A DNA stretch of 49,109 nt, from positions 1-49,109 of the forward strand of contig NZ_CANLNH010000024.1 in assembly GCF_947492535.1 (NCBI RefSeq), in the 5' to 3' direction. A program made the position numbers and the translations under genes. The stretch comes from an uncultured Dokdonia sp. (GTDB lineage Bacteria > Bacteroidota > Bacteroidia > Flavobacteriales > Flavobacteriaceae). Under the pieces are notes generated by a model, which worked only from the letters and a program-made list of their open reading frames with translations, did no database searches and was not told where the DNA came from. How positions within the stretch are numbered: the stretch's first letter is position 1; every line of letters begins with the position of its first letter. Of the stretch, positions 731 to 42,318 are shown in pieces.

Positions 731-754
731 TATACGCTTTCGCGAAAGCGTATA
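731..754. repeat. Dispersed palindrome, copy 1 (longest perfect copy)
   Basis: A perfect 24-base palindrome built on CGCTTTCGCGAAAGCG (735-750). It lies in the divergent phosphoesterase/truA intergenic region, and its last TATA is also the start of the TATATTTG box upstream of truA. Confidence 0.95.
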
Positions 755-758
755 TTTG
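751..758 (+). promoter_or_regulatory. Probable -7 promoter box of truA
   Basis: TATATTTG fits the Bacteroidota -7 consensus TAnnTTTG exactly and sits 17 bases before the TTG start of truA. No good -33 TTTG lies at the usual spacing; that stretch is occupied by the palindrome, which shares its final TATA with this box. Confidence 0.5.
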
Positions 759-775
759 CTCAAAAATAATACACT

Positions 776-1549
776 TTGCGGTATTTTATACAACTATCTT
801 ATAACGGAACTCCATATCATGGCTGGCAACGTCAACCAAATGCTGTAACCGTGCAACAGACTATTGAAGAAGCACTTTCTACACTGTTACGCATGCCTAC
901 AACTATTATGGGCGCTGGACGGACAGATACTGGTGTACATGCACGTATGATGTATGCACATGTGAATATTGAAAATGAAGATGGTGTTGATATCGCTTTC
1001 GCGAAAGCGGACTTAACAAAACTCACCTACAAACTCAATAGTTTCTTACCACCTAGCATTGCGATTACACAAATCATTCCTGTAACACCAGAGGCACATG
1101 CCCGCTTTGATGCTACACATAGATCGTATATTTATAGAATAAGCCCCACTAAAAATCCGTTTACACAAGAACGTGCATTTTACTATAAAATTCCTTTGGA
1201 TATACAACGAATGCAAGAAGCATCAAATATTTTATTAAGGTATTCAGATTTTGAATGTTTCAGCAGGTCAAATACAGATGTCAACACGTATCTTTGTGAT
1301 ATCAAAGAAGCATCCTGGTCTCAAGTAGATGATGAGTACCATTTTAAAATCACAGCAGATCGTTTTTTACGTAATATGGTACGCGCGGTCGTAGGTACAT
1401 TAATCGAAATTGGGCAAGGTAAAAAATCTGTTTCATGGATGCATGAAGTGATTAAAGGAAAAAATAGAAGTCTCGCAGGAGCGTCTGCTCCAGCACATGG
1501 ATTATACCTAACTGATATTGGATATCCAAAACATATATTTATAAACTAA
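776..1549 (+). CDS. truA: tRNA pseudouridine(38-40) synthase TruA
   Basis: Converts uridines 38-40 of the anticodon arm of many tRNAs to pseudouridine. At 257 residues it has the normal length. The catalytic aspartate is D51 in the signature GAGRTDTGVHA; the N-terminal start (RYFIQLSYNGTPYHGWQRQP) and the FLRNMVR motif near the C terminus also fit. The start is TTG at 776, chosen because homologues start at this MRYF and no ATG is available. A copy of the dispersed palindrome (994-1009) is read in frame as AFAKA (residues 74-78), in a place where the E. coli enzyme has no obvious counterpart. The stop codon abuts the ATG of the next gene, so the two are probably cotranscribed. Confidence 0.95.
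   Translation: MRYFIQLSYNGTPYHGWQRQPNAVTVQQTIEEALSTLLRMPTTIMGAGRTDTGVHARMMYAHVNIENEDGVDIAFAKADLTKLTYKLNSFLPPSIAITQIIPVTPEAHARFDATHRSYIYRISPTKNPFTQERAFYYKIPLDIQRMQEASNILLRYSDFECFSRSNTDVNTYLCDIKEASWSQVDDEYHFKITADRFLRNMVRAVVGTLIEIGQGKKSVSWMHEVIKGKNRSLAGASAPAHGLYLTDIGYPKHIFIN
994..1009. repeat. Dispersed palindrome, copy 2, inside truA
   Basis: A perfect 16-base CGCTTTCGCGAAAGCG, read in the truA frame as AFAKA. Confidence 0.95.
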
Positions 1550-3316
1550 ATGGCAACAACCAAAGGAAAAGCATTTGATACAAAACTATTTAAAAGGCTA
1601 TTGCAATTTGCAAAACCTTATAAATCGCAATTGTATTTAGCGGGTATTGGTGCTATCTTATTATCTGTATTTGCAGCATTACGTCCTAATTTCATGGAAA
1701 AAGCCATTGATATAGGAATTAGCAATAAAGAGCCTGACAGCTTACTTTATTATATTATTTTAATGGGTATTGTTCTCTTGGGACAAGTTATTTTTAGACT
1801 TTTATTTATTTATTATTCTAACTGGATAGGACAACAAGTAATACGTGATATACGTGTAAAACTGTTTAAGCATATGCTACAGTTTAAAATGCAATATTAT
1901 GACACTTCTGCTGTGGGAAGATTGGTTACTAGAGCTGTAGGCGATATAGAAACGATTGCCAGTATTTTTAGTCAAGGATTATTTATGATCATTGCAGATT
2001 TACTTACAATGGGAGTAGTATTAGGCTTTATGTTTTGGAAAAGCTGGCAACTCACACTTATCGTACTTGCAATTTTTCCTATTATATTATATGCAACACG
2101 CGTATTTCAACGTGCAATGAAAATAGCTTTTGAAGAAGTTCGCACACAAGTATCCAATCTAAATACATTTGTACAAGAGCGTGTTACGGGTATGAAAATT
2201 GTACAAATCTTTAATCGTGAAGCGATAGAACACAAAAAATTTGGAGCTATTAATAAAAAGCACATGGATGCTTGGAATAAAACAGTATGGTATAATTCTA
2301 TCTTTTTTCCCATTGCAGAGATGTGTACCTCTATTACAATTGGACTTATTGTATGGTACGGAGGAATGCATATCGCCGAATCTGAAGCTATTACACTAGG
2401 GGTGATCACTGCATTTATAAGTTATATCCAAATGCTGTTTACACCATTACGTCAAATAGCTGATAAGTTTAACACCTTACAAATGGGAATGGTAGCCGCA
2501 GATCGTGTATTTGGCATTTTAGATACTGAGTCTCGAATTAAAGATATAGGAACGAAAGAACTCACTACAGTAAGAGGAGAAATCACTTTTGAAAATGTAC
2601 ACTTTAGTTATGTGCCAGATGAAGAGGTTTTAAAAGGAGTTACTTTTACTGCAAAGCCTGGACAAACGATTGCAATTGTAGGTTCTACGGGAGCTGGGAA
2701 ATCAACCATCATTAATTTGTTGAGTCGTTTTTATGAGATTGATAGTGGTCGTATTGCTATAGATGGAACTTCTATAGCCGATATCAAATTACAGCAACTA
2801 CGTAAAGAAATTGCCGTTGTACTTCAAGATGTATTCTTATTTGCAGATTCTATACTTAATAATATTACACTTAATGATCCTGCAATTTCTGAAGAAACGG
2901 TGATTACTTCTGCAAAAGAAATTGGTGTTCATAAGTTTATTTCTAGTCTTCCAGACGGGTATCATTATAATGTAAAAGAACGAGGCGCTATGCTCTCTAG
3001 TGGACAACGACAGCTGATTGCATTTTTACGTGCGTATGTGAGTAATCCTTCTATTTTGATTTTAGATGAAGCCACCTCATCTGTAGATTCATATAGCGAA
3101 CAACTTATTCAGAAAGCGATAGGTAAAATCACAAAAGGACGTACATCTATCGTAATTGCACACCGCCTTGCGACCATCAAAAAAGCAGATCTAATTATGG
3201 TCATGGATAATGGAAGAGTAGTCGAAAAAGGAACTCATAAAGAACTTCTTAAAAATAAAGGCGGACATTATTTAGCGCTTTATGAAGCTCAGTTTACTGA
3301 AGTAGAAACGGTATAA
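1550..3316 (+). CDS. ABC transporter, fused permease and ATPase (MsbA/LmrA type)
   Basis: Half-transporter of 588 residues, expected to work as a homodimer in the inner membrane and to export a lipid-like or hydrophobic substrate. The N-terminal half holds six predicted membrane helices (about residues 20-310). The C-terminal half is the nucleotide-binding domain: Walker A GSTGAGKS (378-385), signature LSSGQ (482-486), Walker B ILILDEA near 505 and H-loop IAHR near 535. It starts directly after the truA stop. Flavobacterial genomes carry several such genes and the substrate cannot be read from sequence; lipid A core flippase activity is only one possibility. Confidence 0.9.
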   Translation: MATTKGKAFDTKLFKRLLQFAKPYKSQLYLAGIGAILLSVFAALRPNFMEKAIDIGISNKEPDSLLYYIILMGIVLLGQVIFRLLFIYYSNWIGQQVIRDIRVKLFKHMLQFKMQYYDTSAVGRLVTRAVGDIETIASIFSQGLFMIIADLLTMGVVLGFMFWKSWQLTLIVLAIFPIILYATRVFQRAMKIAFEEVRTQVSNLNTFVQERVTGMKIVQIFNREAIEHKKFGAINKKHMDAWNKTVWYNSIFFPIAEMCTSITIGLIVWYGGMHIAESEAITLGVITAFISYIQMLFTPLRQIADKFNTLQMGMVAADRVFGILDTESRIKDIGTKELTTVRGEITFENVHFSYVPDEEVLKGVTFTAKPGQTIAIVGSTGAGKSTIINLLSRFYEIDSGRIAIDGTSIADIKLQQLRKEIAVVLQDVFLFADSILNNITLNDPAISEETVITSAKEIGVHKFISSLPDGYHYNVKERGAMLSSGQRQLIAFLRAYVSNPSILILDEATSSVDSYSEQLIQKAIGKITKGRTSIVIAHRLATIKKADLIMVMDNGRVVEKGTHKELLKNKGGHYLALYEAQFTEVETV

Positions 3317-3322
3317 AGAATA

Positions 3323-4420
3323 TTATAATTCACGATATGTCACCAACGTCATCTCTTCAGATTTCCCTCGCAATTGTACACTGCCTATCGTTTCTTTAGT
3401 AAGACCTTCTGGTAATTGATATAAAACATCTGCAAAATCACTAGAAACCAAAATATCTACATTGTTTTCATTACATCTCGCTTGAATACGAGCTGTTGTA
3501 TTAAGAACATCTCCAGAAAAAGCAATATCACGTTTAATCCTTCCAAGCTCTCCTACCATAACGGCTCCATAATGAAGTCCTATTTTAAATATTGGTAAAT
3601 ATCCATATGCCTTAGTATAATAAGCTTCTCGTTTTGTAATTGCATCTCGCATTTTATAATAACACCGTAATGCATTTCCCCTTTTAAGTCCATTCTTCAT
3701 TTTCCAAGTAACCACAACTTCATCGCCTACATATTGGTATACTTCCCCTTGTGTTTGTTGAATGGGAGAAGCTATATCATTAAAAAAATCTTTTAAAAAA
3801 TGAAAATATTTTTCCTCGCCTAATACCTCAGCAATTCCTGTTGCGTTACGTATATCTGCAAACATGAAAATACGGCGTTCTCTTTTGGGACTAAAATATT
3901 TCCCCTTAAGATAATCAGGAAACACACCCGGACCATACTTATCATTAACCATAAAAATAATTACGGTACTTAATACAATAAATAACCAAATAATAAGATT
4001 TTTTATAAAAAGCCAACTTTGAAAAAATAGCTTTACTTCAGTGATCACTTTTTTACTATGAAATGGTTCTCCTGTATAATCACTATAGTAAAAAACACTT
4101 CCTATTAAACTAATAAGAAGCGCTACTACAATGTATGTAAGTGCTATTACAATAAGTGCTTTACCAAACGCATACTTTCGAAGACTACGCTCCATAAAGT
4201 TAAGCGTAACGGTACCACCAATAAGACCGGCGATTATAGATACTAAAAGACTCGCTCGAAAAGAGATTGTAAAATCATATTCTGAAGTCAACGCATTATT
4301 TTCTACTAATGTCAAATACTCATATAGAAACAACGAATTAAAAATAAGCACCCAAGCAAAAAGCACCCAAAAAGCTCGTTTTGCATAATACCAGATTTCT
4401 TCTTTAGAAAATTTGCGCAT
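3323..4420 (-). CDS. Membrane-anchored class III adenylate/guanylate cyclase
   Basis: Four predicted membrane helices (about residues 6-36, 53-77, 87-111, 136-158) precede a class III cyclase domain. Both metal-binding aspartates are present (D189 in FADIRN, D233 in GDE), as are the transition-state residues (N307, R311 in LNTTARI) and the aspartate of the purine-specificity pair (D298). The specificity lysine, usually K in KYIGD, is Q229 (QYVGD), so whether the product is cAMP or cGMP is uncertain. I use the ATG at 4420. A GTG at 4447 would extend the protein by RFRES-containing sequence that is simply the dispersed palindrome. It is the last gene of the cdaA/DUF3667 group; the upstream stop is 30 bases away. 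Confidence 0.88.
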   Translation of the reverse strand: MRKFSKEEIWYYAKRAFWVLFAWVLIFNSLFLYEYLTLVENNALTSEYDFTISFRASLLVSIIAGLIGGTVTLNFMERSLRKYAFGKALIVIALTYIVVALLISLIGSVFYYSDYTGEPFHSKKVITEVKLFFQSWLFIKNLIIWLFIVLSTVIIFMVNDKYGPGVFPDYLKGKYFSPKRERRIFMFADIRNATGIAEVLGEEKYFHFLKDFFNDIASPIQQTQGEVYQYVGDEVVVTWKMKNGLKRGNALRCYYKMRDAITKREAYYTKAYGYLPIFKIGLHYGAVMVGELGRIKRDIAFSGDVLNTTARIQARCNENNVDILVSSDFADVLYQLPEGLTKETIGSVQLRGKSEEMTLVTYREL

Positions 4421-4429
4421 ATTTTTATT

Positions 4430-4443
4430 GCTTTCGCGAAAGC
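4430..4443. repeat. Dispersed palindrome, copy 3
   Basis: A perfect 14-base GCTTTCGCGAAAGC, with one extra G on the right, between the second DUF3667 gene and the class III cyclase gene. Confidence 0.9.
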
Positions 4444-4449
4444 GCACCC

Positions 4450-5412
4450 TTACTGAATACTATCTTTAATAAGTTCTACAGTGTGTTTAAGGGTATCTCC
4501 GTTTATAGAGTCTCTTAGAGCCTTTGCTGCTTTTTGTGCTTCAGCTTGTTTTTGTATTAATTTATAAAACTCTGTATCGTTTAATGCTCCTGTTTTGGCC
4601 ATAAAATAACCTGTAACTGCTGTGATAACAAAAAATAGCAGTAATAAGACAAAACTCAACAAGAAGAAAAGCCCTGTTTTCAGTACCAAATTCCCTGAGT
4701 CTAATTTAAATAATCGTTTCAACACATAGCCCATATAAGCAATCGTAATAAATGGCGTAATCATTCCATATAGCTGAGATGCTGTTTGATTCCATATAAA
4801 TAATAACCCTAGTACTGTGGTTATTAAAGCAATATGCGAATAACCATATAAGTAAATAACAAAATGTTCTACCAGATTGTATTTTTTATAATTCCAAAAA
4901 ACTACTTTAGAGAGTAATGCTAATACCGGAATAATCGCAAAATAGATCACTGATTGATTTTCCATGACTGTTGTAAGCCATTTAGAAGCAAAAGATTTTT
5001 GAATCTCTGCTGCGTCACCACTATAAAAGCTGGTTTGTGCTTGTATCATATCATCCATAAACCAATGCTTTATAATAAAAGCATATATCCCCGCTACCGT
5101 AAGTGCTACTGCAAAATAACTAAAGGCTGGGAGGTATTTTTTACGCATTCCCCTCATGTAGCCATCGATAACATCTTCTGGTTTTTTAAAAAGGGCAAAA
5201 AAAGTTTTTAAAAATGCGTTTTCTATATTCAAAAAACGATCTACAAAGTCTTCAAAGAGATTACGCCACGTAATTCTATTGTACATACGTTTCCCTCCAC
5301 AATTAGAACAGAAACGTTGATCTAAGGCAAGGGGTTGTTCACAATTAATGCATGTATTACTTACTTCAAGAAGTTCTTGTTTACGTTTGGATACTTTACC
5401 CATAGGGATCAT
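4450..5412 (-). CDS. DUF3667 family membrane protein, copy 2
   Basis: A zinc ribbon at the N terminus (C21, C24, C35, C38, spacing CxxC-x10-CxxC) is followed by the DUF3667 core (MYNRITWRNLFEDFVD, FLNIENAF, a KPEDVIDGYMRGMRKKY stretch) and about five hydrophobic segments. The function of the family is not known; Bacteroidota carry many copies. The ATG at 5412 is preferred over an upstream TTG at 5433. It is a clear tandem paralogue of the next gene upstream, and both end in an Ala/Lys-rich cytoplasmic-looking tail. It lies in a probable operon between cdaA and the class III cyclase. Confidence 0.85.
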   Translation of the reverse strand: MIPMGKVSKRKQELLEVSNTCINCEQPLALDQRFCSNCGGKRMYNRITWRNLFEDFVDRFLNIENAFLKTFFALFKKPEDVIDGYMRGMRKKYLPAFSYFAVALTVAGIYAFIIKHWFMDDMIQAQTSFYSGDAAEIQKSFASKWLTTVMENQSVIYFAIIPVLALLSKVVFWNYKKYNLVEHFVIYLYGYSHIALITTVLGLLFIWNQTASQLYGMITPFITIAYMGYVLKRLFKLDSGNLVLKTGLFFLLSFVLLLLFFVITAVTGYFMAKTGALNDTEFYKLIQKQAEAQKAAKALRDSINGDTLKHTVELIKDSIQ

Positions 5413-5448
5413 TTGGTCTGTTAGCAATGACAAGTTACTATAATGTTA

Positions 5449-6465: not shown

Positions 6466-6469
6466 AAGA

Positions 6470-7246: not shown

Positions 7247-7262
7247 AAAAAATGCTTTGTAG

Positions 7263-8411: not shown

Positions 8412-8431
8412 TACGCTTTCGCGAAAGCGTA
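8412..8431. repeat. Dispersed palindrome, copy 4
   Basis: A perfect 20-base palindrome (TACGCTTTCGCGAAAGCGTA) directly next to the T-run of the htpG terminator. Confidence 0.95.
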
Positions 8432-15484: not shown

Positions 15485-15500
15485 CGCTTTCGCGAAAGCG
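15485..15500. repeat. Dispersed palindrome, copy 5, between rpoB and rpoC
   Basis: A perfect CGCTTTCGCGAAAGCG in the rpoB-rpoC spacer. A half copy, TACGCTTTCGC (15513-15523), lies 12 bases further on. Confidence 0.95.
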
Positions 15501-15539
15501 TACTCAGAAAAATACGCTTTCGCTATAGGGTATATCAAA

Positions 15540-19358: not shown

Positions 19359-19487
19359 CAACGAACGGAATTTGATTAGAAACTAGATTTACTGTTGGGG
19401 TAAATCGATTATTGATTTTAATTTTTAAGACATTAAAATCAAGAAAATGTCTTTGTTACCTTATAGTAACCTTTATATACGACAAAT

Positions 19488-19534
19488 GGTTTAGGTCAAA
19501 TTATGCTTTTATATAAGCATAACAGACCTAAACC
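19488..19534 (-). promoter_or_regulatory. Long two-part hairpin between rplL and rpoB
   Basis: A 10-bp outer stem (GGTTTAGGTC / GACCTAAACC, 19488-19497 and 19525-19534) and an 8-bp inner stem (TTATGCTT / AAGCATAA), joined by a small internal loop. No T-run follows on the minus strand, so full termination is unlikely. Position suggests an attenuator or RNase processing site that sets the rplL to rpoB ratio, as known at the same place in E. coli. Confidence 0.6.
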
Positions 19535-19556
19535 TTTATGTCTTTATTATGAGAGC

Positions 19557-24142: not shown

Positions 24143-24157
24143 CGCTTTCGCGAAAGC
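24143..24157. repeat. Dispersed palindrome, copy 6, between two tRNA genes
   Basis: CGCTTTCGCGAAAGC (14 of the 16 bases paired) in the 45-base spacer between tRNA-Gly and tRNA-Thr(GGT), 8 bases before the 5' end of the latter. Confidence 0.9.
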
Positions 24158-24180
24158 TCAATACCCAAAGGCATTTATAG

Positions 24181-25221: not shown

Positions 25222-26112
25222 TCATTTTTTATTACGAGGATGGGCATTATTATAAACATTACGCAGTGTTTTTATACTATTATGAGTATATACTTGCGTA
25301 GAAGCTAAACTTGCATGACCTAACAGATCTTTTAATGTATTTAAATCTGCCCCTTGGTTAAGCAAATGAGTAGCAAAAGAATGTCTAATAATATGCGGAC
25401 TCTTTTTGATTTTGTTTGACGTCTTACTAAAATAATGATTTATTATTCTATAAACAAGTGTATCATATAATTTAACGCCTTTCTTAGTAATAAGCAGTGG
25501 CGCATCATATTCATTTAAAGAAACCTCATTTCTCTTCTCCAAATATTTAGAAATCGTAACACACACATTGGGCAACAAAGGCATCAAACGCTCTTTATTA
25601 CGCTTCCCGATAACGCGTATTGTTTTTTGAGACACATCTACACTGCCTATGGTAAGACCAATAAGCTCTGCCCTTCTCATCCCTGTTCCGTACAATAACT
25701 CCAATAACAAAAGATCTCGTATAGATTCAAAATCATTTGAAATAGATAATAAATCAAATACCTCAGACACTTCATTCTCTGAAAAAGGAATCTGAAGCCT
25801 TTTAGATGTTTTTAATGCCTTATGCTTTACCAAGGGTGAAACTTTAATTGCTTCCATCTTTACAAGGAACTTATAAAACGATTTTAACGAAGAGACTTTT
25901 CGATTAATACTTCTATTTGAAATACCCTCATCCACAAGCGATACGATCCAACTTCGTATTTGACTGTAATGCACTTCCTGAAGTTCTATTTGATCATAGT
26001 TCGCTTTCGCGAAAGCGTAAAAAGCCTCAATATCTTTCTCATAAGCAAGCACTGTATGAGAACTATACTTCTTTTCTAAGGAGAGGTAATCTATAAAAGA
26101 TTGTAAGAACAT
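25222..26112 (-). CDS. xerC: Tyrosine recombinase, XerC/XerD-like
   Basis: 296 residues. The N-terminal SAM-like DNA-binding domain (SFIDYLSLEKKYSSHTVLAY) is followed by the catalytic domain with GTGMRRAEL (first Arg), HIIRHSFATHL (His and second Arg), LLGHASLASTQVYTH (second His and Tyr nucleophile, Y275). It probably resolves chromosome dimers, but one of several Xer paralogues cannot be told from another here. The ATG at 26112 is preferred to an upstream TTG. A perfect palindrome (26002-26017) is read as AFAKA just after the first helix. It lies next to raiA and rpsU, a neighbourhood often seen in Flavobacteriaceae. Confidence 0.9.
   Translation of the reverse strand: MFLQSFIDYLSLEKKYSSHTVLAYEKDIEAFYAFAKANYDQIELQEVHYSQIRSWIVSLVDEGISNRSINRKVSSLKSFYKFLVKMEAIKVSPLVKHKALKTSKRLQIPFSENEVSEVFDLLSISNDFESIRDLLLLELLYGTGMRRAELIGLTIGSVDVSQKTIRVIGKRNKERLMPLLPNVCVTISKYLEKRNEVSLNEYDAPLLITKKGVKLYDTLVYRIINHYFSKTSNKIKKSPHIIRHSFATHLLNQGADLNTLKDLLGHASLASTQVYTHNSIKTLRNVYNNAHPRNKK
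26002..26017. repeat. Dispersed palindrome, copy 7, inside the xerC-like gene
   Basis: A perfect 16-base CGCTTTCGCGAAAGCG, read on the minus strand as AFAKA in the N-terminal domain. Confidence 0.95.
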
Positions 26113-27837: not shown

Positions 27838-28713
27838 CTATTCAATAGACAAATATAACTTAATTCTAGCAAATTTGTAGTCTGTCATACCATCTAGTCC
27901 TGACAATTCTTCTAAAGATTTTATTCCTTCATGTAGTATTCTATAATCCACGATCTCTTTAGCAAGATCAAAATTAAGAAGTGGAATTGTAGACAAATCT
28001 GATGCAGAAGCTGTATTTACATTTATAAATTTTACTACAGGTTTTTCTTTTACTGTGTATTCATTAAGTACTGCTCGCTTTTGTTTTGTAGTAACCCCAT
28101 ACACATCATACAATTGGGCATCTACTTGATAGCCGCCTATTTTTTGAATATTCCGTAGTATCTTATCAGCAGCTACTTCACCTAAACCTTCAATAGCCAT
28201 CAAAGCTTCCAAAGTTATTTTATTGAGATCTTTCTTTTGATCGTATGTTTTCCATTTTGGTTTAGCAGTATATTTTTTCTTAGGTTTTGGGTTTGTGATC
28301 CAATCTGGAAATTTAAAGTATGGAGATATAGTTGCTAATAACGAGTCGGACACTTTGGTTACCTTCTTGAAGTCTGAAACGGAATTGATCCATTGTCCGC
28401 TTTCGCGAAAGCGGTGCAAGCGATCCACCTCTTCTACACTCATTCCTAACATATACCCTTTATAATCTGTAATGTAGTTTGGATTAAAAGGATATCGTTT
28501 AGGTTTCTTGTTTTCTAACGCAACGACTTTAAGGGAATCTATTTGTTTTTGAAACGCAAGAACCTCTACATGTTCTTCTTCAGATATCGCAATATCTTGC
28601 GTAGGCTCATACCAAAATGAAACACTCATAAGAACACAAATGAGTCCTATAAATACCAAAATCCCACTTCTTTTTTGTCTATCGTAAAAGAAGTGGGATT
28701 TTAAGTTATTCAT
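27838..28713 (-). CDS. ComEA-like helix-hairpin-helix protein
   Basis: 291 residues. An N-terminal KSHFFYDRQKRSGILVF start is followed by one membrane helix (about 17-35), so most of the protein faces the periplasm. Three helix-hairpin-helix units follow (about residues 70-130, 150-205, 225-290), the last two with GLGEVAADKILRNI and INVNTASASDLSTIP motifs typical of ComEA. Such proteins bind DNA and may serve in DNA uptake; this is family knowledge, not shown here. It carries a palindrome copy read as RFRES (28397-28414), and its first codons contain a perfect 17-bp hairpin. Confidence 0.85.
   Translation of the reverse strand: MNNLKSHFFYDRQKRSGILVFIGLICVLMSVSFWYEPTQDIAISEEEHVEVLAFQKQIDSLKVVALENKKPKRYPFNPNYITDYKGYMLGMSVEEVDRLHRFRESGQWINSVSDFKKVTKVSDSLLATISPYFKFPDWITNPKPKKKYTAKPKWKTYDQKKDLNKITLEALMAIEGLGEVAADKILRNIQKIGGYQVDAQLYDVYGVTTKQKRAVLNEYTVKEKPVVKFINVNTASASDLSTIPLLNFDLAKEIVDYRILHEGIKSLEELSGLDGMTDYKFARIKLYLSIE
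28397..28414. repeat. Dispersed palindrome, copy 8, inside the ComEA-like gene
   Basis: A perfect 18-base CCGCTTTCGCGAAAGCGG, read as RFRES at residues 101-105, between helix-hairpin-helix elements. Confidence 0.95.
28658..28702 (-). terminator. Perfect 17-bp hairpin overlapping the start of the ComEA-like gene
   Basis: Arms 28658-28674 and 28686-28702 (AAAATCCCACTTCTTTT and its exact complement) flank an 11-base loop. It starts about 30 bases after the symporter stop and lies inside codons 4-19 of the next gene. It has the shape of a terminator for the symporter transcript while also coding for KSHFFYDRQKRSGI. Confidence 0.75.
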
Positions 28714-32013: not shown

Positions 32014-33810
32014 ATGGAACATTTCATCGTATCTGCCAGAAAATACCGCCCTCAGACATTTAAAGATGTTGTGGGTCAACAGGCTATCACAAATACGCTT
32101 GAAAATGCCATTGCAAATAATCACCTTGCGCAAGCACTTCTTTTCTGTGGACCCCGTGGTGTCGGAAAGACCAGTTGTGCACGTATTTTAGCAAAACGTA
32201 TTAATCAAGATGAAAATACGCGTCCTGACGAAGATTTTGCTTTTAATATTTTTGAATTAGATGCCGCTTCTAATAACTCTGTAGATGATATTAGAAATCT
32301 TATAGATCAGGTACGAATTCCACCACAAGTTGGCACGTATAAAGTGTATATTATTGACGAGGTTCATATGCTGTCACAAGCGGCTTTTAATGCATTCCTT
32401 AAGACATTAGAAGAGCCTCCTAAGCATGCTATTTTCATACTAGCGACCACAGAAAAACACAAAATCATACCAACGATATTATCACGTTGTCAAATATTTG
32501 ATTTCAAAAGAATCACAGTAGCTGATGCGAGAAAACATCTTGTTCAAATTGCGAAAGAAGAAGGGATAGATGCAGATGAAGAAGCATTACATATTATTGC
32601 TCAAAAGGCAGATGGTGCAATGCGAGATGCCTTATCTATATTTGATAGAGTTGTAAGTTTTAGTGGTAAAACGCTTTCGCGAAAAGCGGTAACAGAAAAC
32701 TTAAATGTTTTAGACTATGATACCTACTTTACAGCGACTGACCATATTCTAAAGAACAATATCCCGCAATTACTATTACAGTTTAACGATATACTATCTA
32801 GAGGATTTGATGGACATCATTTTATTGCAGGGCTCGCTTCTCACTTTAGAGATTTAATGGTATGTAAAAATCCACCAACCATACATCTATTAGAAGTTGG
32901 CGATGGAACAAAAAAGAAATACTACGAACAGTCACAACAAACCGAACTCGCTTTTCTATTAAAAGCGATTGATATGGCAAACAGTTGTGATCTCACTTAT
33001 AAAACAAGCCGCAACCAAAGACTACTTGTAGAACTTTGCCTGATGCAACTTGCCTCTATCACCTATGATGGAGAAAAAAAAAATGACCAACCTTTCATAA
33101 TTCCACCGTCATTTTATAAACTATCTCCAGAAAATGCTCAAAAGGTAGATAGAACATTAAAAGCAACTGCTACTATTGAAAAAGAAGTAACTCCAGTTAC
33201 CAAAACTGTTACAGCACCTACCCAACCATTAGTACTCACTGAGAACTCAGTACAACCTCAAATTGAAAAAACTCATACAGACGTACTTCCTAAAGTTGCT
33301 AAAACCGAAAGTAAACCAGAAGTTACCCAACCTAAACTAGCTATTACTAAAGAACGAATATCCGGTTTATCATTAAAGGGATTACAGCGTAAAAAAGAGC
33401 TAGAAGAAAAACGTAAAGAACAAAAAGTAGATATCACCAATCTACCTAAAGAGCCTTTTACAGAAATAGCCATGCAAGCTGCATGGAAAGAATATGTTAC
33501 TAAATTATCTAATCGAGGAGAAAAAATCATAGCTTCCAATTTAGAAGCTGATACACCAAAGCTACAGGGTACGGTCATACAATTAGAATATCCGAATGCG
33601 ACGATGAAGGTAGAGGTAGAAAGAGCCCAAGGACCTTTACTAGAATTTCTTAAAAGAAAATTGAATAACTATGATATCACCCTTGATATTATTGTAAATG
33701 AGGAAGTACAACGCAAATATGCCTATACACCTCAAGAAAAATATGATAAATTAAAGGAACAAAACCCTGATTTAGAAATTCTTAAACGTGCATTTGATTT
33801 AGAATTATAA
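32014..33810 (+). CDS. dnaX: DNA polymerase III subunit gamma/tau
   Basis: 598 residues, clamp-loader ATPase of the replisome. Walker A is GPRGVGKT (46-53), Walker B VYIIDEVHML near 119 and sensor 1 ATTE near 150. The four-cysteine zinc module found in E. coli DnaX after Walker A is not present: the segment NQDENTRPDEDFAFNIF has no Cys, as usual in Bacteroidota. The C-terminal tau-like part (about 370-598) is Lys/Glu/Thr-rich and variable. An imperfect palindrome (32672-32688) is read as LSRKA at residues 221-225. miaE starts 3 bases after the stop. Confidence 0.95.
   Translation: MEHFIVSARKYRPQTFKDVVGQQAITNTLENAIANNHLAQALLFCGPRGVGKTSCARILAKRINQDENTRPDEDFAFNIFELDAASNNSVDDIRNLIDQVRIPPQVGTYKVYIIDEVHMLSQAAFNAFLKTLEEPPKHAIFILATTEKHKIIPTILSRCQIFDFKRITVADARKHLVQIAKEEGIDADEEALHIIAQKADGAMRDALSIFDRVVSFSGKTLSRKAVTENLNVLDYDTYFTATDHILKNNIPQLLLQFNDILSRGFDGHHFIAGLASHFRDLMVCKNPPTIHLLEVGDGTKKKYYEQSQQTELAFLLKAIDMANSCDLTYKTSRNQRLLVELCLMQLASITYDGEKKNDQPFIIPPSFYKLSPENAQKVDRTLKATATIEKEVTPVTKTVTAPTQPLVLTENSVQPQIEKTHTDVLPKVAKTESKPEVTQPKLAITKERISGLSLKGLQRKKELEEKRKEQKVDITNLPKEPFTEIAMQAAWKEYVTKLSNRGEKIIASNLEADTPKLQGTVIQLEYPNATMKVEVERAQGPLLEFLKRKLNNYDITLDIIVNEEVQRKYAYTPQEKYDKLKEQNPDLEILKRAFDLEL
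32672..32688. repeat. Dispersed palindrome, copy 9, imperfect, inside dnaX
   Basis: CGCTTTCGCGAAAAGCG, the 16-base unit with one extra A, read as LSRKA. The added base would keep a third frame open. Confidence 0.85.
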
Positions 33811-36238: not shown

Positions 36239-38301
36239 TAATTATTCACTGCATTTAAGTAATACTCATAGGTAGCAAATTGAGATCTTACTTTAGGTTT
36301 ATCATTTTCTACATATGCATTATCTTGTCTTTCGTTCAGTTTTCTTGCTTTCACATTATCATTCCAGCATATATCTAAGGTCTCTAAGATTTCTCTCTTC
36401 ACATCTTGATCATAAATAGGACAACTCACCTCTACTCTATTATCCAAATTACGAGACATCCAATCTGAAGAAGATATATAGACTTTTGAATCCTCTCCTT
36501 TTCCAAAAACATACACTCTTGGATGTTCTAAAAATCGATCTATAACACTAATCCCACGTATATTATCACTCAATCCAGGTACGCCAGGAATTAAACAACA
36601 AATACCTCTTACAATTAAATCTACTTTTACACCCGCTTGACTAGCTTCATATAACTTATCGATAATTGCATAATTAGAAAGACTATTCAATTTAAGGCGA
36701 ATATACCCTTTGCCACCTTCCTCTACTTTTTCTATTTCCTCATCTATCAATCTATAAAATGTATTCCTACTATAATGAGGAGAGACTACTAGATGCTTAT
36801 ATTTATTAACGATATAATTCGTATCAAAAAACACAAACAGCTTTGATAGATCTTTCAATATTTTCTGATCTGCAGTAAATAAGGTATAATCTGTATAAAT
36901 ATTGGCTGTCTTATGATTAAAATTACCTGTACTTATAAAACCATATCTTACTATTTTTTCCTGTTCTTCTCTCTCAATTACACATACTTTACTATGTACT
37001 TTTAAACCAGGCACACCAAAAATAAGCTTCACCCCTTGGTTTTCCATTTGTTTCGCATACATCATATTTGACTCTTCATCAAAACGCGCTCGTAATTCTA
37101 TCTGAACAGTTACCTCTTTTCCATTTTGAGCCGCATTAATTAAAGCACTCGCAATGTGAGATATTTTTGCAAGTCTATAGATTGTAATTTTAACCGACTT
37201 TACCTTTGGATCTAAAGCTGCTTCACGTAAAAATTTAATAGTATACGCAAATGTGTGATAAGGCGCATATTGTAAATAGTCTTTTTGAGCTATTTTTTCA
37301 AACATGCTACAATCTAATGTGATTCCTTTTATAGGAAGTGGTTTTTGTTTTGGATACAGTAAATCTTTACGTCCCAAACTAGGGAATCCCATATAATCTT
37401 TTCGATTGTGATATCGCCCCCCAGGAATGATACTATCATCATTTTCTATATCCAGCTTATTCAATAAAAAATCTAAGGTCTCTTTCTCTATGGTTTTATC
37501 AAATACAAAACGTACAGGCGCTCCATCTTCTCTCCCTTGCACAGATTTTGATAATTTTTCAATAAAGCTTTTCCCTAAATCAGATTCTATATCCAACTCA
37601 GCATCACGTGTAATCTTAATCATATGAGCAGAAATAGACTCATAATCAAAAATATTAAAGATACTATCCAGATTATACCGTATCACATCATCAATCATAA
37701 TGATACGATCTTGATCATCTATCTTAGGAAGCACAATAAAACGATCAATACTACTAGGTATTTCAAGCAATGCATACATAGGAGCTTCTTCTCCTTTCAT
37801 GACCATTTTAATCGTAAGATAGGCGTCTAGATCCTGAATACGTGGTAACTCTACATCTTCTCTCAAGATGATCGTTTCAATAGCAGGACTCACTTCTTCT
37901 GTAAAAAAGTCTTTCACAAACCGTTCATGCTCTTCATGTTCAATCTCTGTTTCTTTAATAACATGAATTCCCTCAGCCTCAAGCTTTTTATAAATATCTT
38001 GTAGAATATGTAAACTTTCTGCCTGTTGATCAATTACTATATCTGTAATCATAGGTAGTAATTCCTCTGCAGTATATACCCCTAATGCTTTTCTACCTTT
38101 TCGTCCTGCTCTTACAATACGACGTACTGTCGCATAACGAACTTTAAAAAACTCATCGAGATTATTAGAAAAAATACCTAAAAAACGGAGTCGTTCTATT
38201 AGAGGGACCGTCTCATCGGCAGCTTCTTGTAATACACGACCATTAAACTGTAACCAACTTAACTCTCTATTTATATACTTACTCTTCTGGAGTTCATTCA
38301 T
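36238..38301 (-). CDS. ppk1: Polyphosphate kinase 1
   Basis: 687 residues. It makes polyphosphate from ATP. The active histidine is H436 in GLKVHSKVCVIE (H435 in E. coli); the RARFDEESN and STGNFNHKTA motifs and the second HxK-type region (DWMSRNLDNRVEVSCPI) are present. The length is typical. Its ATG is 3 bases after the sixA stop, and its TAA overlaps the ppx ATG by one base. Confidence 0.97.
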   Translation of the reverse strand: MNELQKSKYINRELSWLQFNGRVLQEAADETVPLIERLRFLGIFSNNLDEFFKVRYATVRRIVRAGRKGRKALGVYTAEELLPMITDIVIDQQAESLHILQDIYKKLEAEGIHVIKETEIEHEEHERFVKDFFTEEVSPAIETIILREDVELPRIQDLDAYLTIKMVMKGEEAPMYALLEIPSSIDRFIVLPKIDDQDRIIMIDDVIRYNLDSIFNIFDYESISAHMIKITRDAELDIESDLGKSFIEKLSKSVQGREDGAPVRFVFDKTIEKETLDFLLNKLDIENDDSIIPGGRYHNRKDYMGFPSLGRKDLLYPKQKPLPIKGITLDCSMFEKIAQKDYLQYAPYHTFAYTIKFLREAALDPKVKSVKITIYRLAKISHIASALINAAQNGKEVTVQIELRARFDEESNMMYAKQMENQGVKLIFGVPGLKVHSKVCVIEREEQEKIVRYGFISTGNFNHKTANIYTDYTLFTADQKILKDLSKLFVFFDTNYIVNKYKHLVVSPHYSRNTFYRLIDEEIEKVEEGGKGYIRLKLNSLSNYAIIDKLYEASQAGVKVDLIVRGICCLIPGVPGLSDNIRGISVIDRFLEHPRVYVFGKGEDSKVYISSSDWMSRNLDNRVEVSCPIYDQDVKREILETLDICWNDNVKARKLNERQDNAYVENDKPKVRSQFATYEYYLNAVNN

Positions 38302-38304
38302 ATT

Positions 38305-38787
38305 TTATAATTCTTTAGGTATGCACGTAAAAATAGTCTCTCCCTGACTCATATCCTTCCAATGATCTATATTAAATGTAATAGCAGTAAATCCACAAGT
38401 AGGTACATTATCTACATATAAGCTCCCATAGGTATTCACAAAATTAGTCATTGCATTATTATGTCCAAAAACCATGAGGCAATCAATTCCATCATCACAA
38501 TTTCGAATCACATCCACCAAATCTCTCCCGTCAAAATCATACAGTTTATGATCTAATATGATTTCTTCTTCTGGTATTTGGTACGCTTTCGCGAAAAAAA
38601 ACGACGTTGTCTTCGCACGCATCGCATCACTACTCATCATCAAGTCTGGCTTTGGCATCTTACTTGCCACATGAGCAGCTACTCTAGGCGCATCATTGAG
38701 TCCTCTATCATTTAAAGGACGCTCATGATCTATCACATCAAATTTCCAACTAGACTTCGCATGGCGAACTACATACAGTGTTTTCAT
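38305..38787 (-). CDS. sixA: SixA-type phosphohistidine phosphatase
   Basis: 160 residues of the histidine phosphatase superfamily. RHAKSSW (R8, H9) carries the phosphohistidine; a second His comes in VFGHNNAMT, and ERPLNDRGLNDAPRVA is the usual SixA stretch. It may remove phosphate from phosphohistidine proteins. The location next to ppk1, whose mechanism uses a phosphohistidine, is suggestive. An imperfect palindrome is read as AFFFAKAY (residue 69). Spacing to both neighbours is 3 bases. Confidence 0.88.
   Translation of the reverse strand: MKTLYVVRHAKSSWKFDVIDHERPLNDRGLNDAPRVAAHVASKMPKPDLMMSSDAMRAKTTSFFFAKAYQIPEEEIILDHKLYDFDGRDLVDVIRNCDDGIDCLMVFGHNNAMTNFVNTYGSLYVDNVPTCGFTAITFNIDHWKDMSQGETIFTCIPKEL
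38587..38596. repeat. Dispersed palindrome, copy 10, half-eroded, inside sixA
   Basis: The core TTTCGCGAAA is intact and the left arm TACGC is kept; the right arm is a run of A. Read as FAKA. Confidence 0.7.
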
Positions 38788-38790
38788 ATA

Positions 38791-39435
38791 TCAAGGTGCT
38801 AAACGTTCTTTGATCCATTGTTCTCCATCCAATCTATATCGAATTCTATCATGGAGTCTACTCGGCCTTCCTTGCCAAAACTCGACAGAAACAGGTGTTA
38901 CTAAATAACCACCCCAATGTGATGGTCTTGTAATCGTTTCATTGGCATATTTCGCTTTAAGCGCATTCATTCTATCCTCTAAAACTTCACGATTTTCAAT
39001 CACCGTACTCTGATTTGAAACCAAAGCCCCTAACTGACTACCTTTAGGACGGGCATTAAAATAACGATCCGATCGCTCTGGAGTTACTTTTCGTACAGTG
39101 CCTTTTATTATAACTTGACGCTCCATACTTGGCCAGAAAAAAGATAATCCAATTTGCGGATGCTTTGCCATACTGATCCCTTTCTCACTTTCATAATTTG
39201 TATAAAACACAAACCCTTCCTGATCATATTCTTTTAGTAACACAATGCGTGACTTAGGAAAACCATCTTCCCCTAGAGTTGCTAGTGTCATGGCATTGGG
39301 TTCTTTTACACCTCCATCTTCTTCAATTTCTTGATACCACGTAGCAAATTGCGCTATAGGGTTGTCACTCATATCAGCTATAAGCAATGCCCCTTTTTCA
39401 TAATTTTGTCTAAACGCATGTAAGTCTCTATTCAT
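38791..39435 (-). CDS. pdxH: Pyridoxamine 5'-phosphate oxidase
   Basis: 214 residues. It oxidises pyridoxamine or pyridoxine 5'-phosphate to PLP with FMN and O2. The split-barrel FMN site is clear (NAMTLATLGEDGFPKSRIVL, LSFFWPSMERQVIIKGTV), as are SNQSTVI and the C-terminal EFWQGRPSRLHDRIRY. It leads the pdxH-sixA-ppk1-ppx operon (spacers 3, 3 and -1 bases). The 153-base region upstream, shared with the divergent lipoprotein gene, has no gene. Confidence 0.96.
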   Translation of the reverse strand: MNRDLHAFRQNYEKGALLIADMSDNPIAQFATWYQEIEEDGGVKEPNAMTLATLGEDGFPKSRIVLLKEYDQEGFVFYTNYESEKGISMAKHPQIGLSFFWPSMERQVIIKGTVRKVTPERSDRYFNARPKGSQLGALVSNQSTVIENREVLEDRMNALKAKYANETITRPSHWGGYLVTPVSVEFWQGRPSRLHDRIRYRLDGEQWIKERLAP

Positions 39436-39588
39436 ACCTGCTAAGGTACGAGAAAGCTAACGAAGTTAAAAGTAGTCATATACGGTTTCACATAGAATTA
39501 ACCTTCCACAACGATCCCGCAAATAGGGGCATTCACCCCTTGTTATACCATACTGACTTTTATAACTTTACAAGTAAACCATTCTCAC

Positions 39589-39960
39589 ATGAAATCACAA
39601 AGATATCTACAGCGCTACTTATACGTAATTTGTACGCTATTTTTTCTAAGTAATCTCACTTCTTGCGTTAGTACGCGTGTAGAAGCAAATCCCTATCAAG
39701 ACGGAGCGGTAAACATTCCATGTCAAGAAAAAAGTAGCTGGAGTTACTTCTGGGGATTAAAACAAAAAACCGTAAGTGCAAACCCTGAAATAGAAGGCAC
39801 CGAATGCCCGTGTAGAAACAAAGCAATGACTTGGGTAGAAACCAAATCTTCCTTAGGAGATTTCTTATTAAGCTTAATAACGGTAGGCACTGTAAACCAC
39901 AGAACCGTCACCTATGGTTGTGCAAGAGATCAAGAGGGAGATGGCGGATTAGACGATTAA
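39589..39960 (+). CDS. Hypothetical lipoprotein
   Basis: 123 residues. A hydrophobic signal (LYVICTLFFLSNLTSC) ends in the lipobox LTSC with C26, so the mature protein is lipid-anchored. The mature part has CQEKSSWSYFWGLKQKTVSA, EGTECPCRNKAMTW and a short hydrophobic stretch (GDFLLSLITVGTVNHRTVTY), ending acidic (EGDGGLDD). I do not recognise the family. It precedes the FAD oxidase gene by 11 bases on the same strand and is probably cotranscribed with it. Confidence 0.75.
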   Translation: MKSQRYLQRYLYVICTLFFLSNLTSCVSTRVEANPYQDGAVNIPCQEKSSWSYFWGLKQKTVSANPEIEGTECPCRNKAMTWVETKSSLGDFLLSLITVGTVNHRTVTYGCARDQEGDGGLDD

Positions 39961-39971
39961 TACTACATATT

Positions 39972-41549
39972 ATGATACCAGAAGGACTAGAGAAATTACC
40001 CATTCAAGAATGGACCAATAAGCACGAAAATTTCACACATGATCTCGTACCAGATACTTCCTTTAAAGTATTCAATCCTACAGGAAAAAATCGTAGGGAT
40101 CGTTATCAAAAAACCACCAAAAACTTTCAGTGGCTCATCAAACACGGCATTGACAATGACATCAGACTTCGCGCTATGGGAAGCGGTTGGTCGTTTACCA
40201 AAGTAGGCGTTACCGAAGGAGGATTGATCGATACAGCCTCTTTAAATTTTTCATTTCCGCTTACGCGAAAATATGTAGCGACCGACTACCCGAAACAACC
40301 ACAAGATTTGTACTTCTTACAATGTGGAAGTATTATCTACGAAATCAATAATCGGTTAGCGACCAAAAATCCTGCACGATCTATCAAAGCATCTGGAGCG
40401 AGTAATGGTCAGACGATTGCTGGAGCCTTATCCACTGGTACGCATGGTGCGGCTTTTGAAGTAGGTGCTATTCAAGATTTTGTGGTAGGATTACATCTCA
40501 TTACAGGCCCTAACGAACATGTATGGTTGGAGCGAGCTTCCTATCCCGTTGCGGCACCAACATTTGTTGATTGGTTAGATGCCAAAATCATTAAAGATGA
40601 TGCATTATTTGAAGCAGCTTTAGTCAGTTTTGGGAGCTTTGGTTTTATACACGGCGTCATGATAGAAACCGAACCTATCTTCCTATTAGAAGAACATCGT
40701 AAAGGAGATATCCCATACAACGCCGATCTAAAAAAGGCGATGACACAACTAGATTTCTCTGGTCTTAATTTACCCGGAGCTGGTCCTAACAAAGAATTAT
40801 ACCATTTTGAAGTCCTCTTTAATCTACACAAGTTTGAAAAGAACAATCCAAATAAAGGCGCCTTCTTAAAGTACATGTATAAGAAACCGTATCAACTTCC
40901 TTATACACCTGTAGTACGTGATAATAACTTTACCTATGGAGATGACTTACTAGGGATTATGTCTTCTACCCTCGATCGATTGGGCGTTATTTCAGATTTA
41001 TTAATTCCTCCCATGGTGAATACCATGTTTGGACTCGCATTTGCGCCACAACCACCACAAACAGGAACGATACGCGAACTCTTTAACTACACCAAATTCA
41101 GAGGAAAAGTAGCGAGTGCCGCGATAGGTATTGATATCGCCAATTCTGCAAAAGTCGTAGAAGAAATCATAGACGTTAACAAGAAATGTCCATTCCCTGG
41201 CGGGCTTTCTTTACGGTATGTAAAAGGTACCAAAGCGACCTTAGGGTTTACAAGATTCACACATACCTGTGTCCTAGAAATGGATGGTGTAGACAGTAAA
41301 GCGGCACGTACATTTTATGAAGCCGTCTGGAACCGACTGGAAGAAAAGAATATTCCATACACATTACATTGGGGTAAAATTAATTTTAACCTCAACAAAA
41401 CGCGTGTTAAAAACATGTACGGCACTACCCATGTAAATGCATGGATTGATGCTCGTAATACATTACTCACAAATGATGCAGCAAAAGTATTTACCAATAA
41501 ATTCATAGAACGCTGCGGGTTGGATATGCTTTTAGGGCCAATTGTTTAA
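39972..41549 (+). CDS. FAD-linked oxidase of the ALO/GULO (VAO) family
   Basis: 525 residues from the ATG at 39972; a longer frame overlaps the preceding gene. The FAD-binding PCMH domain is in the N-terminal half (IRLRAMGSGWSF, IKASGASNGQTIAGALSTGT, HGAAFEVGAIQDFVVGLHLI). The C terminus has the HWGK motif (TLHWGKINF) of aldonolactone oxidases. In that family the GSGHS histidine carries FAD covalently; here it is Trp (GSGWS), so FAD should be non-covalent. No signal peptide is visible. The substrate is probably a sugar lactone or alditol; this is inference. Confidence 0.85.
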   Translation: MIPEGLEKLPIQEWTNKHENFTHDLVPDTSFKVFNPTGKNRRDRYQKTTKNFQWLIKHGIDNDIRLRAMGSGWSFTKVGVTEGGLIDTASLNFSFPLTRKYVATDYPKQPQDLYFLQCGSIIYEINNRLATKNPARSIKASGASNGQTIAGALSTGTHGAAFEVGAIQDFVVGLHLITGPNEHVWLERASYPVAAPTFVDWLDAKIIKDDALFEAALVSFGSFGFIHGVMIETEPIFLLEEHRKGDIPYNADLKKAMTQLDFSGLNLPGAGPNKELYHFEVLFNLHKFEKNNPNKGAFLKYMYKKPYQLPYTPVVRDNNFTYGDDLLGIMSSTLDRLGVISDLLIPPMVNTMFGLAFAPQPPQTGTIRELFNYTKFRGKVASAAIGIDIANSAKVVEEIIDVNKKCPFPGGLSLRYVKGTKATLGFTRFTHTCVLEMDGVDSKAARTFYEAVWNRLEEKNIPYTLHWGKINFNLNKTRVKNMYGTTHVNAWIDARNTLLTNDAAKVFTNKFIERCGLDMLLGPIV

Positions 41550-41615
41550 AAGCCCCCTACCCCCGAAGGGGGAACTTTAGCTACTTCTCTTGAAATCAAA
41601 ATAGAGTAACACTCT

Positions 41616-41638
41616 AAAATAGAGTAGTACTCTATTTT
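41616..41638. repeat. Perfect 23-base palindrome
   Basis: AAAATAGAGTA-G-TACTCTATTTT with 11-base arms. Just before it (41598-41615) is a direct near-copy, so this is a doubled AAAATAGAGTA unit. Confidence 0.8.
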
Positions 41639-41773
41639 GTGTTGCTATACATACACACCCCTTACTCCCTCTTTCTAGAGGGGAAACTGTTCTGTATTAA
41701 AAAATCTTCATTTTGAGTAGTACTAGGTACACTTTTACGCGCCTCTCTGCTGACAGACAGGAGCACAAAAAAA

Positions 41774-41834
41774 GCTCATCCCCTTAACGAGGGGAGGTGG
41801 ATGAATCGAAGCATGAGATTCAGACGGAGGGGAG
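41774..41834 (+). repeat. Repeat family B, copy 1
   Basis: Begins GCTCATCCCC and ends CAGACGGAGGGGAG, with GAGGGGAGGTGGATGAA in the middle. The same unit, with a few changes, occurs at 46020-46080. Outer ends pair, so it folds. Confidence 0.75.
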
Positions 41835-42062
41835 TTTAAAGTATGTACCAATCAGTATCTTCATAAAAAAAGGAAACTGTTCTGTTTTATAAAATCTTCA
41901 TTTGAGTGTTCCCTTCTAAGAAGGCGATGTGCTGAGTATGTAGAAGTAAGGGTTAGGGAGGTGTTATTGTTTCATCTGTAAAAGATCATACCAAAATATA
42001 GCGTGTTGCTCTATTTCTGATGTGGGTTATTGAATATGCTTTTATGCAAGATTGTATAAGCT

Positions 42063-42124
42063 CTCCCTTCCGTCTATATCTCGTTCCTCGCTATAGCCAC
42101 CTTCCCTCGCTGAGGGAAGGAGCT
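42063..42124 (-). repeat. Repeat family C, copy 1 (inverted)
   Basis: A 62-base unit that is nearly the exact reverse complement of 45911-45973 (only a few differences). It carries a CTTCCCTC / GAGGGAAG hairpin and a TATAGACGGAAGGGAG end. Confidence 0.8.
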
Positions 42125-42170
42125 TTTTTCTGATTTCACAAAACAAAGAAATCTATATGCTATATTCTTT

Positions 42171-42194
42171 TATATGCTTTTGCGAAAGCGTATA
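42171..42194. repeat. Dispersed palindrome, degenerate copy
   Basis: 24 bases that differ at two positions from the perfect 24-base copy at 731-754. Confidence 0.75.
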
Positions 42195-42305
42195 ATAAAT
42201 CATAAAACTACAATAGTTGCACACCTCTCTACCCCTCCTTCTTAGGAGAGAATACTCAGATGAAAGCATAACTAGGTACACTACTTCAACAGACTCGGAA
42301 TGATA

Positions 42306-42318
42306 TTTCGCGAAAGCG
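42306..42318. repeat. Dispersed palindrome, half copy
   Basis: TTTCGCGAAAGCG: core and right arm are intact, the left arm is lost. Confidence 0.75.

Follow-up and report, generated by a model that had tools for sequence, protein, structure and literature searches.

Why would a bacterium maintain hundreds of copies of one short palindrome in its genome? This question, raised by the highly iterated palindrome HIP1 of cyanobacteria, arises again from a 49,109-nucleotide stretch of DNA of an uncultured Dokdonia sp. (assembly GCF_947492535.1, contig NZ_CANLNH010000024.1; the whole stretch is hereafter called the window), in which the 16-base palindrome CGCTTTCGCGAAAGCG recurs from position 731 to 42,318 and beyond. 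In our assessment CGCTTTCGCGAAAGCG is a functional DNA mark that is read by a protein, a statement of which we are much surer than of either an uptake or an organiser role for it. Single sites near rpoB are constrained at the level of the DNA, and at the gene loci compared the sites were created by substitution. The palindrome is best read as the core of a motif of ~50 bases, in which 16 fixed bases, strict over the inner 14, are accompanied by ~18 T/G-biased bases 5' of them on each strand. Both the protein and its role are what we infer from these data.

Abundance and taxonomic distribution

In the host genome (G000; 4,863,283 bases in 73 contigs), 861 copies of CGCTTTCGCGAAAGCG were found with at most one mismatch, and none of the reversed word. 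Samples of 400 kb from G203, 400 kb from G221 and 449 kb from G000, referred to below as the three samples, contain 71, 86 and 46 exact copies and 30, 21 and 35 copies with one change, respectively (203 and 86 altogether). The density of the mark is about one copy per 4-8 kb. Each of 60 control palindromes, in which one half had been shuffled, was present in at most one copy with up to one mismatch in each of the three samples. Over-representation is thus genome-wide and far above composition, as in the HIP class.

The trait is confined to few genera. All 18 Dokdonia genomes searched carry 333-939 copies and all 23 genomes of a second genus, that of G010, carry 362-897, incomplete genomes included in both cases; this high copy number throughout each clade, together with the sharp consensus, is what is expected of uptake sequences. 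G190, the sole genome of its genus, has 377 copies (reversed control, 2). In a family survey of 199 genomes, one per genus with our own included, 48 had any copy and only three had more than 21, namely our own, G010 (629) and G190; the other 196 had 0-21. Among 395 genomes of the class, 30 had any copy and, apart from our own, none had more than 7. G144, a near relative, has only 12 copies. Site number was not significantly correlated with genome size (r 0.33 for 13 of the 18 and 0.24 for 20 of the 23 genomes, those less than 90% complete being left out).

The genus of G010 clusters in the RpoB tree with L067, a record titled Nonlabens. G221 has a chloride-pump rhodopsin that matches 5fjg without a difference over 272 residues, and we take this entry to be the protein of Nonlabens marinus. 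Chains of 7q36 and 4xtl, which we take to be the Dokdonia eikasta sodium pump, are almost identical to the sodium-pump rhodopsin of G203. A chloride-pump rhodopsin of Nonlabens marinus is the subject of an excerpt from PMC4999514. The carrier genera are therefore presumably Dokdonia and Nonlabens.

A preliminary description of the window, made from its sequence alone, had likened the word to HIP1 and to DNA uptake sequences, as a mark spread over the whole genome. The counts in the full genome and in related genera bear this out, as the word is far above chance and genus-specific. In the literature searched, mostly open-access, the 16-base word is not in print and of its 10-14 base cores only a 10-mer was matched, in 10 papers whose titles and abstract openings mention no repeat of a genome; titles and abstract beginnings retrieved with related terms contain no report of this repeat. 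A scan for a different palindrome of the same kind covered those of 100 loci of non-carriers that reach 9 kb, and looked for dispersed 12-mers and for palindromes present at least three times. It returned CGCTTTCGCGAAAGCG in a few loci, and otherwise AT-rich palindromes and scattered words; with a single locus from each genome its power is low.

The window itself holds 14 matches with up to three mismatches (six exact, two with one, one with two and five with three mismatches), whereas 100 dinucleotide shuffles averaged 0.06 matches and never had more than 1. They are listed here by position, with no strand assigned:

735..750, exact palindrome, intergenic (not covered by any open frame of 80 codons), upstream of a tRNA pseudouridine synthase gene
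994..1009, exact palindrome, within the tRNA pseudouridine synthase gene, reads ...IAFAKAD...
4429..4444, copy with one mismatch (T at position 1), at the 5' edge of a cyclase-domain open reading frame (3323-4447, minus strand)
8414..8429, exact palindrome, between AhpC/TSA-family and HSP90-family genes
15485..15500, exact palindrome, rpoB-rpoC spacer
15515..15530, degenerate copy with three mismatches, rpoB-rpoC spacer, found in G200 too
24143..24158, copy with one mismatch, between tRNA-Thr and tRNA-Gly
26002..26017, exact palindrome, within a tyrosine-recombinase-family gene, reads ...YAFAKAN...
28398..28413, exact palindrome, within a helix-hairpin-helix (HHH_3) protein gene, reads RFRES
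32672..32687, one-armed copy (CGCTTTCGCGAAA and an altered right arm) with three mismatches, within a DNA polymerase III gamma/tau-type gene
38584..38599, one-armed copy with three mismatches, within a histidine-phosphatase-family open reading frame
42175..42190, copy with two mismatches, intergenic
42303..42318, one-armed copy (left arm altered) with three mismatches, in a putative open frame of 86 codons
45828..45843, weak copy with three mismatches, intergenic

The coordinates given in the preliminary description are correct to within 3 bases. A trace that it placed at 40260 does correspond to a word at 40258, but one with 4 mismatches. The surroundings are AT-rich, as described, with a GC content of 0.33-0.39 per 5 kb block. 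There is indeed no copy past 46.4 kb, but nothing follows from this, because the stretch is 2.7 kb long and the mean spacing 5.6 kb. The HHH_3 protein encoded at 27838-28713 (minus strand) itself bears an exact copy; the helix-hairpin-helix fold occurs also in ComEA-type DNA-binding proteins.

Conservation and origin of the sites

Rates of change were determined for sites in ~20 kb around rpoB in 16 genomes, starting from copies with up to one mismatch and using ordered, non-independent pairs; pairs without bracketing matches or with a flank identity below 0.5 were dropped. The inner 14 bases changed at 0.024 per site in Dokdonia (206 pairs) and 0.039 in Nonlabens (87 pairs), about 5-6 times more slowly than flank bases 4-20 (0.14-0.16 and 0.19-0.21, respectively). 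Positions 1/16 changed at 0.12/0.24 in Dokdonia and 0.06/0.01 in Nonlabens.

The copy in the spacer between rpoC and rpoB, genes whose family assignment was confirmed, is present in 9/9 Dokdonia and 7/7 Nonlabens genomes (in G208 with one mismatch) at nearly the same distance from rpoC. G190 has a copy with one mismatch there and G144 one with three, and G076, G078 and G101 have none. Between tRNA-Thr and tRNA-Gly the copy is found in 9/9 Dokdonia and 3/7 Nonlabens genomes. A third common place is the spacer by EF-Tu and tRNA-Trp; in each genus some species have an intact copy there, while in others it has up to three mismatches or is absent. Most other copies near rpoB are not common to both genera, and those in or near comEC and parB occupy different places in Dokdonia and Nonlabens.

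In ComEC the word sits at one codon position in all five Dokdonia proteins and in G190; the 14 other rows of the alignment have no gap in those five columns, and 9 of them are gap-free over the 42 columns shown. In the DUF5683 gene after parB, Ala-Phe-Ala-Lys-Ala (AFAKA) ends a signal-peptide-like start in 5/5 Dokdonia and in G190, whose DNA has 2 mismatches, and the 13 other rows are gap-free at this peptide. Since these orthologues show no gap there, the copies at both loci arose by substitution and then stayed.

The preliminary description had also considered a selfish palindromic element. That the word is such an inserted palindrome, an RNA hairpin or a transcription terminator is scarcely credible to us, as substitution in place is seen at two gene loci and one spacer and none of 14 ComEC and 13 DUF5683 orthologues shows a gap at the codons of the word. 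In its favour are gaps at the site in 20/206 Dokdonia and 25/87 Nonlabens pairs and a hairpin in the rpoB-L7/L12 spacer (19362-19556 in the window, and orthologues) of constant base and variable tip, the tip being, as judged by eye, the palindrome in two species. The 16 columns are free of gaps in 186/206 Dokdonia and 62/87 Nonlabens pairs; 16 of the 25 Nonlabens gaps comprise 9-16 bases, and those of these 25 pairs that were listed fall at two spacers of differing length. Given these 25 pairs, some spacer copies may have been inserted.

In a tree of RpoB, ParB and ComEC (G221 without ParB), G190 groups with Dokdonia (89/88) and G144 adjoins them, and Nonlabens branches off at a separate, weakly supported position; RpoB alone leaves the order of the genera unsettled. 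In approximately unbiased (AU) tests a single clade of the 10 carriers was rejected (p 0.0003) and a clade of Dokdonia, G190, G144 and Nonlabens was not (p 0.10), so that one gain followed by loss in G144 and two separate gains are both possible.

Anatomy of the motif

Of the 86 one-off copies, 66 are altered at the outermost pair, position 1/16 (23/30, 15/21 and 28/35 in the three samples), as are 23/24 in G190. Deviations are therefore concentrated at the outer positions, as in the HIP class, and the strict part is GCTTTCGCGAAAGC, the inner 14 bases. One-armed copies, in which CGCTTTCGCGAAA is followed by other bases, occur in both Dokdonia samples; those at 32672 and 38584 are examples from the window. 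Outside the sites, TTTCGCGAAA is present in merely 3, 0 and 4 copies, and TCGCGA in 31, 46 and 21 copies where about 28, 55 and 27 are expected (one-strand counts).

The latter numbers bear on a HIP-type mark that DNA methylation creates or maintains, for instance through methyl-directed mismatch repair as proposed for HIP1, and on the earlier suggestion that TCGCGA is a methylation target. A strict palindrome with outer-position deviations and a palindromic extension resembles what is described for HIP1 in an excerpt of PMC4390886. Against it, TCGCGA outside the sites is near expectation. Genes were tested in 20 genomes, comprising 10 carriers and 10 genomes treated as non-carriers (1-21 copies). 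Two methyltransferase families were tested: 4 carriers lack PF01555, G203 having just a weak partial match, and 3, G190 among them, lack PF00145; our own genome and G206 are without both. The suggested target is thus unsupported and we regard methylation as a highly improbable explanation.

On each strand, the core is preceded on its 5' side by ~18 bases rich in T and G and poor in C, and the 3' side mirrors this (A/C-rich). The bias is alike in 137 spacer and 150 gene copies and weaker in G190. Mirrored flank positions match about as often as base frequencies predict, i.e., there is no pairing between the arms. Since the mirrored positions agree no more than expected and the bias is the same in spacers and genes, the flanks reflect a property of the DNA or protein contact rather than an RNA stem. 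No T-tract was found 3' of the core, so the GC stem with a T-run at gene ends that marks an intrinsic terminator is lacking. Both results speak against the hairpin and terminator forms of the inserted-element view.

The same flanks are of interest for a recombination or repair signal, i.e., a symmetric Chi-like site that would turn break processing by a helicase-nuclease into strand exchange both ways. Both strands are G/T-rich 5' of the site, which would suit recombinase loading; RecA prefers G/T-rich DNA. A density of one per 4-8 kb also resembles that of Chi in E. coli. Known Chi sites are short, one-stranded and oriented, and 14 strict base pairs would be far longer than any known to us, which makes this an improbable reading.

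Two further observations concern the borders of the motif. Another short repeat (tctcg...ctcga or its complement) directly adjoins TTTCGCGAAA on one side, as if sharing a border, at L236:17820, L237:13144, L237:15242, L241:4972 and L242:2946 of our own genome and at L046:17776 of G176, another genus. In the rpoC-rpoB spacer of G144 (L296), the degenerate copy reads CGCTTCCGCAGAAGCG, its outer arms changed yet still complementary; this is one case.

Placement in genes, spacers and along chromosomes

With genes taken as open frames picked by length and left uncurated, 56/101 (G203), 44/107 (G221) and 39/81 (G000) copies lie in spacers, at 4.7-7.9 times the density in genes. Such enrichment would suit an inserted or hairpin-forming element, but in the three samples roughly every second copy, and in G190 35/38, lie inside open frames. 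There the preferred reading frame is AFAKA, used by 26/45, 35/63 and 28/42 gene copies of the three samples and by 24/35 of G190. The open frames of these four samples contain AFAKA 149 times, 141 of them in the palindrome's codons, as compared to 2 occurrences altogether of five permuted peptides; none was found in the 44 named loci L057-L100. Copies in this frame fall within the first 40 residues in 8/24, 12/35, 3/27 and 5/23 cases, where 2.9, 4.2, 3.0 and 3.0 are expected, an excess that is clear in two samples, weak in a third and missing in G000. Many of the N-terminal copies resemble, by eye, the ends of signal peptides (e.g., ...FAFAKAQ).

Exact copies seldom lie close together. Among the exact sites listed, 2/75 in G199 (13.4 expected), 2/82 in G216 (14.1) and 1/60 in G000 (5.9) are less than 1 kb apart; the window holds one close pair, 735 and 994. 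Counts per 20 kb are under-dispersed, with variance-to-mean ratios of 0.66, 0.44 and 0.53 (lower-tail p 0.14, 0.017 and 0.047; pooled 0.0018).

A rival view is that of a chromosome organiser, in which a dimeric nucleoid or segregation protein would be bound round the chromosome, each site serving its few kb, in the manner of Noc, MatP or SlmA and with ten times more sites. It is favoured by 20 kb counts that scatter less than random, by the scarcity of close pairs, by the two-fold symmetry of core and flanks with unpaired arms, by the strong conservation of single sites near rpoB and by the sites on some phage contigs. Against it, spacings between exact sites spread less than random in G000 alone (fraction 0.001; G199 0.44, G216 0.18), and no origin-terminus trend was apparent by eye in 20 evenly spaced stretches of two chromosomes. 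Taken by itself we consider this role unlikely, and nearly as likely as uptake.

The longest exact-site gaps listed for G199 and G216, examined for acquired islands, hold open frames that are giant or repeated. Five such stretches contain 6 copies with one or two mismatches, so that these gaps give no answer as to core and accessory DNA. Two giant open frames in tandem, with 4431 and 5052 codons (L327:5430-18722 and L328:3128-18283), fill the largest gap listed in G199; each adjoins the same pair of smaller frames of 653 and 318 codons.

Candidate reader proteins

A ParB_N match is present in 20/20 genomes, and no paralogue specific to the carriers, as a dedicated Noc/ParB-type reader would require, was found among them. 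Nine of the 10 carriers have a single match, and the second one of G221 is of a 616-codon type also seen in non-carriers. Together with the canonical parS word that is present in one Nonlabens stretch, where the palindrome is hence no substitute for parS, this counts against the organiser. The second ParB-family protein, of ~600-616 codons, was observed in G221, G144, G101, G012, G172 and G036; in G012 and G172 it lies a few kb from palindrome copies, perhaps on an integrative element. None of the candidates, ParB/Noc, parS, ComEC, PF01555 or PF00145, tracks the trait.

Phages and transferred DNA

The preliminary description noted no copy in the accessory stretch after 46.4 kb. Two related Nonlabens phages (70.7 kb together) likewise have no copy with up to three mismatches, but other phage contigs and an apparently transferred efflux gene pair carry sites, so that a general absence from acquired DNA is not supported. 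The two site-free phages are annotated with recombination proteins of their own, which would fit a Chi-like signal, although other phage contigs do carry sites. A viral collection contained 41 stretches with an exact copy, several of them GC-rich. One viral contig of 37 kb, of which 27.9 kb were examined, has 7 copies with up to one mismatch and encodes terminase, portal, tail sheath, baseplate and DNA-transposition families; in several such contigs, 15/20 scanned proteins match a phage family.

In some other genera, the few exact copies are clustered in a gene pair for an outer-membrane efflux protein (405 to 432 codons) and an AcrB-type pump (about 1250 codons), families assigned from the G078 and G101 copies. 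Two copies stand 933 bases apart in G101, G078, G087 and G160 (one of the G160 copies mismatched). Exact palindromes occur at matching sites of the pair in L031, L033, L035, L037 and L039, from several genera. The pair has apparently been transferred from a carrier. A reading of clusters in other genera as origin-proximal sites was dropped, those of G101, G078, G087 and G012 lying in or near the efflux pair.

Discussion

In the sharpness of its consensus, in its weak shoulders and in its occurrence in permissive places and across whole clades the motif is uptake-like, while its symmetry, the scarcity of close neighbours and the presence on phage DNA equally suggest a chromosome-binding protein. 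Also in favour of an uptake role are the enrichment in spacers, the few exact pairs within 1 kb, the slow change of the inner 14 bases, the two phages devoid of sites and a ComEC-family protein in 20/20 genomes. We tentatively favour, at somewhat less than an even chance, binding sites of a putative symmetric protein that serve as a palindromic self-DNA signal for uptake or recombination. A dimeric or otherwise two-fold symmetric candidate protein would read the motif as double-stranded DNA, and transformation or recombination among close relatives would favour fragments that bear a site. Recombination would in turn spread and repair the sites, which would settle in permissive places such as spacers, signal peptides and loops, and one site per fragment might suffice.

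Several points weigh against a self-DNA signal. No receptor was found, and ComEC, the only part of the uptake machinery tested, does not track the trait, because it is found in 20/20 genomes and hence equally in the 10 treated as non-carriers. Flank bases 21-60, which include genes and tRNAs, are closer to the core in their rate of change (0.08-0.10 in Dokdonia, 0.08-0.13 in Nonlabens) than those next to it. The Nonlabens record L067, of 8.7 kb, has no copy with up to two mismatches. G190 shows no spacer preference, only 3/38 sampled copies (L332-L346) being in spacers. Phage contigs carry the word though injected DNA needs no uptake signal, and no uptake sequence known to us is palindromic.

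Stated more broadly, the palindrome would be a new kind of genome-wide address in Bacteroidota, with a strict symmetric core and biased ~18-base shoulders, kept at hundreds of places and read by a dimeric protein outside ParB/Noc and the two methyltransferase families tested, which would govern either self-DNA exchange or the folding of the whole chromosome, the mark being acquired by some phages and mobile cassettes. We judge this combined statement to be evenly balanced between right and wrong. If the mark is an uptake signal, it would be a palindromic one in a phylum, Bacteroidota, for which none is known to us; if it is a chromosome organiser, it would be denser than those known to us. The carrier genera, as presumably named above, have cultured members and complete genomes (a PacBio genome of Dokdonia donghaensis is announced in PMC4974333), and the individually conserved sites, G144 with its 12 copies, phages with and without sites and the extended motif make the mark testable.

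Comparison with known systems

HIP1 (GCGATCGC) and the alternative cyanobacterial HIPs are likewise GC-rich genome-wide palindromes in genes and spacers, with the outer positions most variable and with palindromic extensions. The present mark differs in its 14-16 strict bases as compared to 8, in its occurrence about once per 4-8 kb as compared to the 1000-2000 HIP1 copies per million bases given in PMC4390886, in the phylum, in a core 6-mer that is unenriched alone and in having no link to the two methyltransferase families tested.

Chi shares the similar spacing and the occurrence in genes and spacers, but is an oriented octamer, whereas a palindrome with a long extended motif is found here. 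The parS, Noc-binding, matS and SlmA sites are strict palindromes of 12-16 bp as well and serve dimeric chromosome proteins; they number tens rather than hundreds, and carriers have no extra ParB-type protein.

With the DNA uptake sequences of Neisseriaceae and Pasteurellaceae the mark has in common a very high copy number, a consensus so sharp that one-off forms are few, additional weak flanks, and its occurrence in permissive places and across whole clades. It differs in being symmetric where those are directional, in being sparser and in the scarcity of close pairs. Excerpts of PMC3630211 give 5918 exact copies and 7153 with one change for one Neisseriaceae genome, and place the Neisseria uptake sequences in permissive regions. 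The weak extended flanks described here are comparable to the AT-tracts of the H. influenzae uptake motif, as reported in an excerpt of PMC7811141.

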